Below, in pieces: positions 2,831-52,644 of a stretch of 64,000 nucleotides of DNA (position 1 is its first letter; the number at the start of each line of letters is the position of its first letter). Below the pieces are notes generated by a model that was not told the origin of the DNA, made no database searches, and saw only the letters and a list, made by a program, of their open reading frames with translations. This DNA is from Halorubrum alkaliphilum (GTDB lineage Archaea > Halobacteriota > Halobacteria > Halobacteriales > Haloferacaceae): the NCBI RefSeq assembly GCF_017873815.1, contig NZ_JAGGKQ010000004.1, positions 124,001-188,000 of the forward strand. The letters run 5' to 3'. Both the position numbers and the translations under genes were made by a program.

Positions 2831-2964
2831 CGCTACTCCCGATCGGCGGGAGGGCCCGACACGCTCACCCTCGGGACGACCGATCCCCCCTTGGTTGAAC
2901 CGCTCGGCCAAAGCTGACGCGACCCGGCAGTTTATAGGGCTGTGAACCATCGACACGGGTACGA

Positions 2965-3045
2965 ATGACACGAAACGATCGTGGTCGTTCGGAGGATAGA
3001 GCAAGTCGCCTCACGGCGGCTGGCCGGGAAATTCGCCGAACGTAA
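2965..3045 (+). other. Possible 26-codon leader ORF overlapping the leuA-type start
   Basis: An ATG at 2965 lies about 31 nt after a TTTATAG box at 2931-2937, so it is the first start codon on the expected transcript. It encodes an Arg-rich 26-residue peptide ending at TAA 3043-3045, in a different frame from the synthase gene, whose GTG (2981) lies inside it. It could be a regulatory leader of an amino-acid biosynthesis gene or a chance frame. Confidence 0.3.
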
Positions 3046-4723
3046 CGACCGATCAGACAGCCTGGACCGTCCGTCCAGCGACGGAACCCGTCCGTCCAGC
3101 GATGACGGTTCCGCCGACACCGACACGGAGACCCTTTTGAACCCACTCACACACCTCGAGGAGGTACAGCTACTGGACACGACGCTGCGCGACGGCGAAC
3201 AGATGCCGGGCGTCTCGCTCACGCCCGCGGACAAACTGGAGATCGCTCGCGAGCTCGACGCCGCCGGCGTCCACGTGATAGAGGCCGGCTCAGCGTGCAC
3301 CTCGGAGGGCGAGCGCGAGGGGATCCGCCGGGTCGCCCGCGAGGGGCTCGACGCGACGGTCACGAGCTTCGCGCGCGGCGTGCGAAGCGACATCGACCGC
3401 GCGCTCGAGTGTGATGTCGACGGCGTCAACCTCGTCGTCCCGGCCTCGGACAGACACGTCGAGACCAAGGTCGGATCGAGCCGCGAGGCGGTCGTCGAGA
3501 CCACCGTCGAACTCGTCGAGTACGCGACGGATCACGGGCTCTGGGTGGAGGTGCTCGGCGAGGACGGCTCGCGAGCCGATCTCGACTACCTCGAACGCCT
3601 CATGCGAGCCGGCCTCGACGCGGGCGCGGACCGCGTCTGCTACTGTGACACCGTCGGCGCGGCCGGGCCCGAACACACCGCCGAGGTCGTCTCACGGCTC
3701 GCCGATCTCGGTCCGACGAGCCTTCACACCCACGACGACCTCGGCTTCGGGGTGACGAACGTCCACGCCGGCCTGAAGGCGGGCGCGGACACGGTCCACG
3801 GCACCGTCACGGGTATCGGCGAGCGCGCCGGCAACGTCGCCATCGAGGAGGTCGCGATCGCGCTCGATCGCTGTTACGACATCGACACGGTAGATATCGA
3901 CCGACTCTACCGGCTCTGTCGACGCGTCGCCGACGTGACGGGAGTCGTGCTCCCGCCGAACAAGGCCGTCTGTGGGGCGAACGCCTTCGCCCACGAGTCC
4001 GGGATCCACACCGACGGAACGCTGAAGGACGGGGCGATGTACGAGCCGTACCCGCCGGAGACGGTGGGTCGCGAGCGCCGGCTCGTGTTGGGCAAACACG
4101 CCGGTCGGGCGGGGGTTGCGGCCGCGCTCGCCGAACACGAGATCGACGTCGACGAGGCGGAGCTCCGCGAGATCGTCTCGCGGGTGAAGGAGCTCGGCGA
4201 CCGCGGGAAGCGCGTCACCGACGCCGACCTGCTCGCGATGGCGGAGGACGTACAGGGTCGCGAGCGCGACCGGCACGTCGAACTCGTCGATCTGTCGGCG
4301 AGCTCCGGCGGCAACCTCCCGACCGCCTCGGTTCGGCTCCGCGTCGGCGACGAGGAACGGGTCGCCTCGGGGACCGGATCCGGACCGGTCGATGCCGGGC
4401 TAGAGGCCGTGCGGACGGCGCTCGAAGCGGGATCGGAAAGCGGGACGCGTGCGGACGGATCGGAGCGCTCCGAGAGCGTCGCCTTCGAGCTCGACTCGTA
4501 TCACGTCGACGCGATCACCGGCGGTACCGACGCGGTCGTCACCGTCGCGGTCGACCTCTCCCGTGGAGACCGGTCCGTCTCGGTGTCCGCCTCGGACGCC
4601 GACATCACGCGGGCCAGCGTCGTCGCGATGGTCGACGCGCTCGACCGGCTCTCAGCAGTCGAGTCGAACGATGACGACGACTCGGTCTCCGATAGTGCCG
4701 AACTCCCGGAACAGGCGGAGTAG
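2981..4723 (+). CDS. 2-isopropylmalate / citramalate / homocitrate synthase family
   Basis: A 580-residue condensing enzyme of the LeuA/CimA family, which joins acetyl-CoA to a 2-oxo acid in leucine, isoleucine or related synthesis. The HMGL-like barrel starts at LLDTTLRDGEQMPGVSLTP (about residue 63) and contains SLHTHDDLGFGVTN and GIGERAGNVAIEEV, the metal-binding HxH and GxGERxGN motifs. A linker with ESGIHTDG and LVLGKHAGR follows, then a LeuA-type C-terminal dimer/regulatory domain (about 425-560). Which substrate it uses cannot be told from sequence. The first 55 residues are low-complexity, with a 21-bp tandem repeat near 3065-3105 (DRPSSDGTRPSSDDG). The GTG at 2981 is uncertain, but no better start follows before the conserved domain. 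Confidence 0.82.
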   Translation: MVVRRIEQVASRRLAGKFAERNDRSDSLDRPSSDGTRPSSDDGSADTDTETLLNPLTHLEEVQLLDTTLRDGEQMPGVSLTPADKLEIARELDAAGVHVIEAGSACTSEGEREGIRRVAREGLDATVTSFARGVRSDIDRALECDVDGVNLVVPASDRHVETKVGSSREAVVETTVELVEYATDHGLWVEVLGEDGSRADLDYLERLMRAGLDAGADRVCYCDTVGAAGPEHTAEVVSRLADLGPTSLHTHDDLGFGVTNVHAGLKAGADTVHGTVTGIGERAGNVAIEEVAIALDRCYDIDTVDIDRLYRLCRRVADVTGVVLPPNKAVCGANAFAHESGIHTDGTLKDGAMYEPYPPETVGRERRLVLGKHAGRAGVAAALAEHEIDVDEAELREIVSRVKELGDRGKRVTDADLLAMAEDVQGRERDRHVELVDLSASSGGNLPTASVRLRVGDEERVASGTGSGPVDAGLEAVRTALEAGSESGTRADGSERSESVAFELDSYHVDAITGGTDAVVTVAVDLSRGDRSVSVSASDADITRASVVAMVDALDRLSAVESNDDDDSVSDSAELPEQAE

Positions 4724-24640: not shown

Positions 24641-24665
24641 AAGTGGGACCGCCCGGATTCGAACC
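24641..24665 (-). repeat. Partial second copy of the tRNA-Pro 3' end
   Basis: A 25-bp exact copy of 24743-24767, that is, the T-loop/T-stem half and acceptor 3' strand of tRNA-Pro plus 3 nt of its flank, lying 102 bp downstream of the real one in the tRNA reading direction. It looks like one side of an attachment-site pair. The 77-bp spacer (24666-24742) includes a hairpin with arms TGCTGCTGC/GCAGCAGCA next to the tRNA. Confidence 0.8.
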
Positions 24666-24745
24666 TCACTCGTTCCGCGTCGCTCCACTCCCTGCTTCGA
24701 ATCCGCTCCATTGCTGCTGCTCGCGGAGTTGCTCGCAGCAGCAAG

Positions 24746-24816
24746 TGGGACCGCCCGGATTCGAACCGGGGTCACGGGCACCCAAGGCCCGGAGTATACC
24801 ACTAACCCACGGTCCC
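24746..24816 (-). tRNA. tRNA-Pro (anticodon TGG)
   Basis: On the minus strand a 71-nt cloverleaf: acceptor GGGACCG...CGGTCCC with discriminator A, D-arm with TTAGTGGTA, anticodon arm CGGGC-CTTGGGT-GCCCG giving anticodon TGG, and T-arm around GGTTCGAATCC. No CCA is encoded, as usual in haloarchaea, and no intron is present. A CGCTTTAGCG element about 29 nt upstream is the likely promoter. Its 3' end is partly duplicated at 24641-24665. Confidence 0.94.
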
Positions 24817-44375: not shown

Positions 44376-44926
44376 TCGGGAGTGGGTATATCGATACGGT
44401 GTGGTGGCTGTTTATAAGTGGGATAGTGGTGTTGTTGGCGGCTGTTTATAAGTAGATGGTGCTGTGGTGAACAGTTCCACATCTCTAACTGTTCATTTAT
44501 AAGTGGTTGAGTACGGATCGTCGGTGAACACTTCCAAAGCCCCAGCCTGCTCCGGTCGAGGGGCTCGCTGCGCGCTCAAAAGGGCGAGCATAGCGAGCCC
44601 TTTTGAGTGCTTGCGTCACCCGTCTTCCCGGAGCAGGCTGCCCCTTTGAGCCCCACCCCACACAGCACCCGCACCTCACGCCTCCCCAGCCTCGCCGGAA
44701 CGGCGCTTAAAGCGCCGTTCCGGGCTCCAGCGAGAATCGAAGATTCTCTGGCAGCCGGCGCGGAGCGCCGGCGACCTCGCGCCGTCGGTTCGCGCCCTTT
44801 TAAGGGCGCGAACCGGGGCGCGCCACCGCGGTGTTCATTTATAAGTGGTCGTCGCAGCCGCTCACAGTCCTTTTAAATACGATCACGTTGCTGCCGATTT
44901 GAGAGACCCACTCCCGCCGTCACTCA
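44376..44926. repeat. Composite palindromic repeat, copy B
   Basis: About 550 bp matching copy A at 24077-24480. Boxes TTTATAAGTGG (44411), TTTATAAGTAG (44445) and TTTATAAGTGG (44496) keep the 34- and 51-bp spacing of copy A. The CCGGAACGGCGC hairpin, a moved and inverted hairpin module (44732-44775), a perfect 11-bp hairpin GGTTCGCGCCC/GGGCGCGAACC (44787-44814), another TTTATAAGTGG (44838) and TTTTAAATAC (44871) follow. A 144-bp extra module (44549-44692) is inserted relative to copy A. No conserved reading frame; no transposase nearby. Confidence 0.85.
44549..44692. mobile_element. 144-bp palindromic module inserted in repeat copy B
   Basis: Absent from copy A. It is bounded by a 9-bp direct repeat ccccagcct (44540-44548 and 44684-44692), of which copy A has one (24241-24249). 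It contains an outer inverted repeat GCTCCGG (44549)/CCGGAGC (44628) and a strong hairpin CTCAAAAGGGC (44575)/GCCCTTTTGAG (44597). The direct repeat could be a target-site duplication or the result of slippage. Confidence 0.6.
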
Positions 44927-51766: not shown

Positions 51767-52486
51767 ATGGACGAACCGAGCGGTCACGGACGTGCCGCAC
51801 TCGTGCGAGAGGGGGTGGAGTTCGACGAACGCGACGTGTCGCTGCTCCGAGCGATCGACGAAACCGGGTCGATCGCGAAGGCGTCGACGGATCTCGGCCG
51901 GTCACGTGCGCGCGAACTCTCCCGGATCGAGACGCTCGAATCCGCGTTCGGCGACCTCGTCGAGCGGTCTCGGGGCGGGAGCGGCGGCGGCGGAAGCACG
52001 CTAACGGACACCGCGAGGCAGCTGATACACCGCTACGAACGGCTACAGACGGCGCTCTCAGCGACCGCACAAGTTCCCGAAACCGTCCTCGACGGGACCG
52101 TCTCGTCCGTCTCGGGGGAGTTGGCCGACGTGACGACGACCGTCGGCACCGTCCGCGGCCTCCATCACGGCGTCGCTCCGGACGACGCGGTCCAGATCCG
52201 GATCGGCGCGGACGCGCTCACGGTTCTCGACCCGGCCGCCGACCCGGAACCGGGTTCGACGAGCGCGAGAAACCGACTGCCCGGAGCGGTCTCCGGGATC
52301 GTGCGGGGCGAAACGGTGTGTACCGTCGGTATCGACATCGACGGGACGACGTTTCGAGCGCTCGTGACGGCGGAAAGCGCGGATCGACTCGAACTGGTCG
52401 CGGGACGTGACGTCGTCATCACGTGGAAGGCGACGGCGACTCGACTCGTTCAAATAAAAAACGGGAGGTCCGGGTGCGAGAATTGA
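51767..52486 (+). CDS. ModE-like HTH regulator with TOBE domain
   Basis: A 239-residue regulator. A LysR/ModE-type winged helix (EFDERDVSLLRAIDETGSIAKASTDLGRSRARELSRIETLESAFGDLVER) occupies residues 18-68, and a TOBE-like domain (LPGAVSGIVRGETVCTVGIDIDGTTFRALVTAESADRLELVAGRDVVITWKATATRLV) is at the C-terminus. ModE-type proteins bind molybdate or tungstate and repress uptake genes, which fits its place 52 bp behind tupC. The last codons, RSGCEN-stop, lie in the partial tRNA-His copy (52468-52491), so its natural C-terminus was probably replaced. Confidence 0.85.
   Translation: MDEPSGHGRAALVREGVEFDERDVSLLRAIDETGSIAKASTDLGRSRARELSRIETLESAFGDLVERSRGGSGGGGSTLTDTARQLIHRYERLQTALSATAQVPETVLDGTVSSVSGELADVTTTVGTVRGLHHGVAPDDAVQIRIGADALTVLDPAADPEPGSTSARNRLPGAVSGIVRGETVCTVGIDIDGTTFRALVTAESADRLELVAGRDVVITWKATATRLVQIKNGRSGCEN
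52456..52461 (-). terminator. Oligo-T terminator candidate behind tRNA-His
   Basis: Six T in a row on the minus strand just beyond the partial tRNA copy, in the direction of tRNA-His transcription. T-runs end archaeal transcripts. A transcript stopping here would contain the tRNA, the spacer and the partial copy. Confidence 0.45.
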
Positions 52487-52491
52487 ACCCG
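52468..52491 (-). repeat. Partial second copy of the tRNA-His 3' end
   Basis: A 24-bp exact copy of 52571-52594: the T-arm half and acceptor 3' strand of tRNA-His, ending exactly at the mature 3' nucleotide. It lies 103 bp downstream of the true end in the tRNA direction. The 79-bp spacer (52492-52570) has hairpins GCGAGAC/GTCTCGC and CTTTCT/AGAAAG. It closely parallels the tRNA-Pro case (24641-24665). Confidence 0.82.
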
Positions 52492-52570
52492 ATTGCGAGA
52501 CTCGCTGACGCTCGTCTCGCGTGGTTCGATTTCGCCTTCCGGCTTTCTTCGTCACTACGTTCCTCAGAAA

Positions 52571-52644
52571 GTCCGGGTGCGAGAATTGAACCCGCGTCTC
52601 AGCCTCCACAAGGCTGAAGGATAGTCCACTACCCTAACCCGGAC
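52571..52644 (-). tRNA. tRNA-His (anticodon GTG)
   Basis: On the minus strand a 74-nt cloverleaf with the extra 5' G typical of tRNA-His: GTCCGGGT...ACCCGGAC pairs G-1 with C73. The anticodon arm CAGCC-TTGTGGA-GGCTG gives anticodon GTG, and the T-arm is around GGTTCAATTC. No CCA encoded. A GGTTATGAAG box 28 nt upstream is the likely promoter. Its 3' end is partly duplicated at 52468-52491. Confidence 0.94.

Follow-up and report, generated by a model that had tools for sequence, protein, structure and literature searches.

About a third of haloarchaeal tRNA genes carry one to three gene-less cassettes of about 100 bases directly behind them

The window analyzed here, a 64,000-nucleotide stretch of the Halorubrum alkaliphilum genome, holds just two tRNA genes, tRNA-His and tRNA-Pro. 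Both lie on the minus strand, and each is followed downstream by a second copy of its own 3' end. Between gene and copy lie a hairpin that adjoins the tRNA (H1), an inverted copy of the T-loop (M), and a second hairpin region (H2). Spacer and 22–24-nt core together form what we call a unit or cassette of ca. 85–170 bp. The parts of the two units in the window are:

52570–52644, minus strand: tRNA-His(GTG), host gene (ARAGORN, Rfam RF00005)
52571–52594, minus strand: tRNA-proximal 24-nt core, the 3' part of tRNA-His from the T-loop on
52544–52570, minus strand: His H1, TTTCT-GA-G-GA-AC-GTA-GT-GA-C-GA-AGAAA (from sequence, position, and the same type in congeners)
52522–52536, minus strand: His M, degenerate inverted copy of T-loop and T-stem (GGCGAAATCGAACCA)
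52495–52521, minus strand: His H2, GCGAGAC-GA-GCGTCAGC-GA-GTCTCGC
52492–52570: His spacer, 79 bp between the 24-nt copies
52468–52491, minus strand: distal copy of the tRNA-His 3' end, 24/24 nt identical (repeat comparison)
24745–24816, minus strand: tRNA-Pro(TGG), host gene of the second unit (ARAGORN, Rfam RF00005)
24711–24744, minus strand: Pro H1, TTGCTGCTGC-GA-GCAACTCCGC-GA-GCAGCAGCAA, adjoining tRNA-Pro
24694–24707, minus strand: Pro M, AGCGGATTCGAAGC, inverted T-loop core (inverted repeat)
24666–24695, minus strand: Pro H2 region, GCAGGGAGTGGAGCGACGCGGAACGAGTGA, with a right half of the 'CAGGGAGYG' type
24643–24665, minus strand: distal copy of the tRNA-Pro 3' end, 23 nt (25 with two more bases)

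The repeats reported by the first-pass annotation proved exact at both genes: all 24 nucleotides agree at tRNA-His (52468–52491 and 52571–52594; 103 bp start to start, 79-bp spacer) and all 25 at tRNA-Pro (24641–24665 and 24743–24767; 102 bp start to start). The hairpins said to abut the tRNAs were likewise recovered, at 52544–52570 and 24711–24744; in that of tRNA-His, GA/GA mismatches interrupt the stem and the loop has three bases. The central TTCGA(A/T) singled out in both spacers is present at 52522–52536 and 24694–24707, not as an independent motif but as the inverted T-loop copy M. Predicted folds of the single DNA strand pair M with the tRNA core around H1 in both units. The only Rfam families matched in the window are tRNA and leuA-Halobacteria, with no other described RNA family; the leuA-Halobacteria RNA (RF03001) lies at 2985–3037 (68.3 bits). 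Far from the tRNAs, at 44575–44607, a perfect hairpin with an 11-bp stem carries a GA...GA loop motif (CTCAAAAGGGCGAGCATAGCGAGCCCTTTTGAG) and is perhaps a terminator.

To place the two units in context, the 3.1-Mb genome (64 contigs) was scanned and the surroundings of all Rfam tRNA matches were re-scanned; with a viral-looking tRNA array set aside, this left 44 distinct tRNA genes. Thirteen of these genes are followed, 70–203 bp downstream, by an exact 20–24-nt copy of their own 3' end (Arg-tct, Lys-ttt, Lys-ctt, Gly-gcc, Val-tac, Val-cac, Gln, Pro-tgg, Tyr, Asp, His, Leu-caa, and Arg-gcg), so that the feature is not confined to the two genes of the window. Two more carry degenerate copies with the same spacer plan (16 nt at Met, 14 nt at Gly-tcc). 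Upstream control regions gave matches of at most 11 nt, except at one tandem pair of tRNA-Asp genes. The array kept out of the count (contig C13:31452–35545, L032) is dense, comprises about 14 tRNA genes of unusual sequence that we take to resemble those of tailed haloviruses, and is probably part of a provirus or virus genome; no units were found at any of its tRNAs.

Aligned with one another, the spacers follow a shared plan, as the first-pass annotation had expected. In tRNA sense, base 73 of the tRNA is followed by a few bases (often TT or CTT), H1, M, H2, and the copy. Read as its reverse complement, M is similar to the T-loop together with a portion of the T-stem. The units contain no integrase gene and have no room for a gene. 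Spacers range from ca. 61 to 150 bp, mostly 70–110 bp; the suggested constant spacing thus did not hold, and since spacer length varies, it is in part by coincidence that the two copies in the window are spaced almost alike. In at least 90 copies at four tRNAs, the copy runs from G53/T54 of the T-loop to about base 73: identity is near complete from G53, the last G of the 5' T-stem strand, to about base 73, and drops sharply on both sides. The core reads GTTCRAAT, its fourth base always being C. Since almost every tRNA shares GTTCRAAT, the point of exchange can be resolved only to about positions 53–60, which correspond to the T-loop. Within tRNA genes, the T-loop is among the regions recognized as targets of integrases (PMC8371274).

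A second class of mini-units with the same plan and a different core was observed at tRNA-Ala genes of Haloferax larsenii and Halorubrum (L234, L275, L282). Here the copies are 14–17 nt of acceptor stem, the middle holds an inverted acceptor sequence (GTGGACTCGCCG), and the GA hairpins lie on the opposite strand.

We followed tRNA-His, tRNA-Pro, tRNA-Val-tac, and tRNA-Gln through 22–39 congeners, with some more distant relatives added for tRNA-His. The four tRNAs yielded 87 units in arrays of one to three, and individual sites hold zero, one, two, or three. Conservation of the outer flank was defined as at least 105 of 150 identical positions over 150 bp, a level above the maximum of 100 found among unrelated flanks in 400 comparisons. 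With this definition, 62 genome pairs differ in unit number despite a conserved outer flank, in the combinations 0/1, 0/2, 0/3, 1/2, 1/3, and 2/3. An empty site equals the filled site minus the insert plus one repeat. The tRNA-Val loci illustrate the range, with no unit in L127, one in L125, two in L120, and three in L118 and L128. Empty sites make up 14 of 28 at tRNA-Pro and 15 of 30 at tRNA-Gln within the genus, and two identical units in tandem occur at tRNA-Val of this genome and at tRNA-His of G018. Within arrays, the distal copy is more decayed than the proximal one in seven cases and less in one, with 11 ties.

A probe built on one H2 sequence type (up to 3 mismatches) matched 97 of 292 Halobacteria genomes, representing 35 of the 77 genera sampled, and its reversed control matched none. 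The exact degenerate form recurs in 84 stretches among 84,980 species, all labeled Halobacteria. In the named genomes, tRNA-core-like sequence follows the H2 motif in 86 of 86 instances. A complete tRNA lies within 800 bp upstream in 73 of these, covering 14 isotypes, with the copy beginning 6–9 bp past the motif and matching the upstream tRNA at 22 of 22 positions in 40 of the 73; the remaining 13 mostly sit at a contig edge or after a partial tRNA end left by a neighboring larger element. No unit carrying the 3' end of the wrong tRNA was seen among the H2-type instances for which a tRNA was found. Across 20 genomes of the phylum, a survey of 31 tRNAs gave a single copy, in a haloarchaeon, and none at the at least 26 tRNAs of relatives outside Halobacteria.

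Some similarity is expected by chance, as T-arms are alike between tRNAs, and identical tandem units could suggest that tRNA ends were duplicated by simple slippage. Exact matches of at least 20 nt at 13 of 44 tRNAs with none upstream, spacers of differing types, and the absence of copies at the tRNAs from outside Halobacteria speak against this reading, which the genome-wide and presence/absence data refute; we consider its probability negligible. The cassettes are a real and widespread family of miniature tRNA-site elements, apparently undescribed until now. The tRNA-specific family of elements of about 100 bp that the first-pass annotation proposed from two genes is thus found throughout the genome and the class, precisely present or absent between species, and its view that the two repeats are unlikely to be independent phage remnants is supported as well.

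Plasmid records held two further observations. Fourteen haloarchaeal plasmids that matched turned out to carry a different conserved hairpin and are not units; in L322, L323, L324, and further plasmids, this part is a conserved intergenic stretch just upstream of a gene for a TFIIB-family or DNA-binding protein, reads GTGGCTGCCGCGCGCAGCGACCGNAGGGAGCGAGCACGGAGCGGTGGGTGGGG in the three named, and is possibly a regulatory RNA or operator. On a plasmid of Haloarcula halophila (NZ_CP119561.1, L325), a tRNA-Cys at ca. 2950–3080 is split in its T-loop by an H2-bearing insert, which is either a unit trapped there or an insertion resembling an intron. This tRNA-Cys belongs to a viral-type array of 23 tRNAs beside genes for a type B DNA polymerase and a TROVE-domain protein.

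A related possibility is that the units are what remains of full-size proviruses or integrative plasmids that lost their interior by deletion, so that the two att arms now meet in the center. Haloarchaeal proviruses leave tRNA 3' duplications of 22–43 nt (PMC3119063), tandem integration at tRNAs is known, and larger elements adjoin some of the units. One tRNA-Val locus (L124, genome G004, 541–1566) would also fit: the H1-like left half is followed by ca. 0.8 kb with one small membrane-protein ORF. Independent decay would not, however, give the same H1–M–H2 order over 70–110 bp at more than ten tRNAs in 35 genera, nor a fold kept by compensatory changes and an M that fits its tRNA (see below). 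The proviruses examined differ in arms and cores, and no virus record carries an arm. The single match in viral contigs is a chromosomal flank that contains units. We therefore regard an origin from such remnants as unlikely. As observed at L124 itself, the H1 half resembles that of a unit, lies between two Val copies, and has no H2; the locus is a possible gene-bearing unit, and its cargo ORF has no Pfam match.

Many hairpins of the units follow the pattern stem-GA-RC-loop-GY-GA-stem, and their loop is often a GNA triplet. The sequence GCGNAGC forms an unusually stable DNA mini-hairpin. Of 81 spacers, 61 show the GA hairpin pattern on the sense strand and one shows it on the antisense strand, compared with a mean of 1.6 in shuffled sequences. 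The predicted folds on the tRNA strand have z-scores of −2.5 (His) and −5.2 (Pro); as the other strand of both window units likewise folds better than its shuffles, the strand preference of these two rests on the hairpin motif and the mean of the 81 spacers. Covariation was analyzed for one H2 type (TCGCGCRCAGCGAACGNAGTGAGCGAGCACGTC) in 110 distinct instances, a number in which related sequences are counted together and which does not represent independent events. The flanking arms pair at four to five inner positions, several of which use more than one pair type: C-G 88, A-T 11, and G-C 3 at k3; C-G 53, T-A 33, G-C 14, and A-T 4 at k4, where 104 of 110 are paired; and A-T 50 and G-C 35 at k5. 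Outside the arms, M and the copy core pair over ca. 11 bases, with 10 or 11 matching in 59 of 86 instances. M, H2, and copy thus form an imperfect palindrome in which the cores lie outermost, the arms lie inside them, and some positions stay unpaired, as in an integron attC site; two-sided changes at three positions across 35 genera are hard to explain other than by a fold.

Selection at the RNA level would produce the same covariation. H1, M, and H2 might act in the precursor tRNA, in termination, 3' processing, or as a decoy for an antisense M, and spread by homologous recombination. Every unit is located behind its tRNA and in tRNA sense, the strand-specific folding holds for RNA as well, and M could mispair with the T-arm while the copy could sequester M. 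A functional trailer leaves the precise borders and the exchange of halves at the T-loop core unexplained, and it fits poorly with copy numbers of zero to three. Such a trailer would also be dispensable, because many sites within the genus are empty. We consider this account highly improbable.

The halves of the units are modular. Of the 12 pairings possible between the three H1 and the four H2 types found at tRNA-Val, 10 were observed, and since the H1 and H2 halves meet at M, exchange of left and right halves between units at this point is the simplest account, by either site-specific or homologous recombination. M matches its own tRNA with a score of 826, compared with 726 ± 12 for permuted tRNA labels (none of 5000 as high), and in 86 H2 units from many tRNAs the five tRNA-specific bases score 1.91 versus 1.62 ± 0.10 (none of 500). 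The fit of M to its tRNA is real but modest, since the T-loop itself is common to all tRNAs. At another tRNA-Val locus (L136, genome G046, ca. 1230–1485), the loop of H1 holds a MITE-like insert of ca. 240 bp with the ends GAATCACTCAG...CTGAGTGAATC.

The inverted M, able to pair with the flanking target and the right end, is reminiscent of the guides of HUH (Y1) transposition of the IS200/IS605 or PATE kind. In such a scheme, the hairpins would be transposase sites and insertion would occur after base 73. Two subterminal hairpins on one strand and the single-strand structure agree with this idea, and haloarchaea are rich in palindromic MITE-like elements (PMC3119063). If insertion took place after base 73, however, any tRNA would be spared, so that units with the wrong tRNA end should be common, and none was seen. 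A 22–24-nt repeat that begins exactly at the T-loop is also not expected. IS200/IS605 elements use 4–5-nt targets. On balance, HUH transposition appears very unlikely.

We favor, with a probability of roughly 0.6, the reading that the units are non-autonomous mini-cassettes that insert by site-specific recombination within the tRNA T-loop (GG|TTCRAAT). Precise insertion, a core starting at the T-loop, and the rule that each unit carries its own tRNA's 3' end are the predictions of conservative recombination at this site. Whole units are seen to be gained and lost precisely between unchanged flanks, to stand in tandem arrays, and to swap halves, and one strand has a conserved fold that covaries. 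A circular or single-stranded unit would carry the 3' part of its tRNA; recombination inside the 7-nt T-loop would replace the tRNA's own 3' end with that of the unit, and the displaced original end would become the downstream copy. The tRNA would stay intact because the unit supplies a replacement end, and units would always match their own tRNA because a mismatched one would destroy it. The folded single strand may be the substrate, since the M–H2–copy palindrome folds on the tRNA-sense strand like attC; H1 would then occupy the place of a cassette gene. Several points count against T-loop recombination. No enzyme and no autonomous element with such arms came to light in the searches described below, elements that are integrated in the genus have other arms and cores, and RNA-level selection would account equally well for the covariation. 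A duplex circle of ca. 100 bp is hard to form, which weighs on a circular unit; one H2 type over 14 isotypes needs an occasional change of tRNA specificity, which the model makes difficult; and distal copies show only a slight excess of decay. A more far-reaching version, which we put forward tentatively and hold to be clearly less probable, is a gene-less integron-like system in which tRNA T-arms play the part of attI. In it, a tyrosine recombinase, either dedicated to the task or encoded by the host, would insert, stack, and reshuffle folded single-stranded DNA cassettes (core–H1–M–H2) at many Halobacteria tRNA genes, and M would provide tRNA-specific pairing.

The putative enzyme of T-loop insertion would most likely be a tyrosine recombinase supplied in trans, either by a resident provirus or ICE or by the XerA-related chromosomal gene. 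Genomes of the genus contain 6–13 tyrosine recombinase matches each, and one recombinase that recurs in nearly all genomes examined is XerA-related by NCBIfam at a score below the cut-off. No autonomous or larger element with H1 or H2 arms was found among the integrases beside tRNAs of the genus, viral contigs, or phage and plasmid records. The integrated elements beside these tRNAs were set aside as an obvious parent because their arms differ and their cores are longer, ca. 30 bp from the variable loop. Two H2 patterns searched against viral contigs (IMG/VR) gave one match for the first, rejected as a viral carrier because the units sit in chromosomal sequence beside a provirus, and none for the second; phage and virus records gave chance matches only, with no arm carried.

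The cassettes work like a non-autonomous integrative element with an attC-like attachment site. With tRNA elements of tyrosine integrases (SNJ2-like, HF1-group, pT26-2-like), they share precise insertion, a duplicated 3' end, an intact tRNA, and tandem accretion. They differ in being ca. 100 bp long without genes or integrase, in a core that always runs from T-loop to base 73, and in the inverted middle core, covarying hairpins, and arms shared between tRNAs. Like integron cassettes and CALINs, they form arrays of small units, each closed by an imperfect palindrome whose outer parts are inverted cores and whose inner arms covary; only one strand folds, and no enzyme lies nearby. In contrast to integrons, their target is a tRNA T-arm rather than attI, their core is TTCRAAT rather than the GTTRRRY / RYYYAAC of attC, they usually carry no gene (L124 possibly excepted), and each restores a tRNA. 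Because they lack an integrase gene and an attC core, we class them with neither integrative elements nor integrons. They are short, palindromic, and non-autonomous like the PATE and MITE-like elements of haloarchaea, yet strictly tRNA-specific with a tRNA-specific repeat of 22–24 nt. DDE-type MITEs have terminal inverted repeats and short target duplications, whereas the cassette ends differ and neither feature is present; IS200/IS605 and PATE elements have 4–5-nt targets without a target repeat. Archaeal integrons have been described from metagenome genomes, with no mention of Halobacteria or tRNA genes (PMC9668308).

We found no prior description of the family in the main texts of open-access papers, and one may exist elsewhere. 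In Haloferax gibbonsii LR2-5, 11 partial tRNAs were reported, several directly beside a full tRNA, and called remnants in passing, with structure, mobility, and family absent from the main text (PMC7921747); these are probably the same objects. Duplications of 22 and 43 nt at Haloquadratum tRNAs were tied to proviruses (PMC3119063). If our reading is correct, the cassettes would be the smallest known tRNA-site mobile elements and among the commonest insertions in Halobacteria, overlooked because they are gene-less and annotated as 'partial tRNA', and would likely explain the tRNA fragments around haloarchaeal tRNA genes. They would also be a warning that not every tRNA 3' duplication is the scar of a provirus. 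They would further represent a testable second case, beyond integrons, of recombination on single-strand structures. As a minimal attachment site that occurs naturally, they would lend themselves to site-specific recombination in archaea and offer a ready genome-engineering tool for halophiles.
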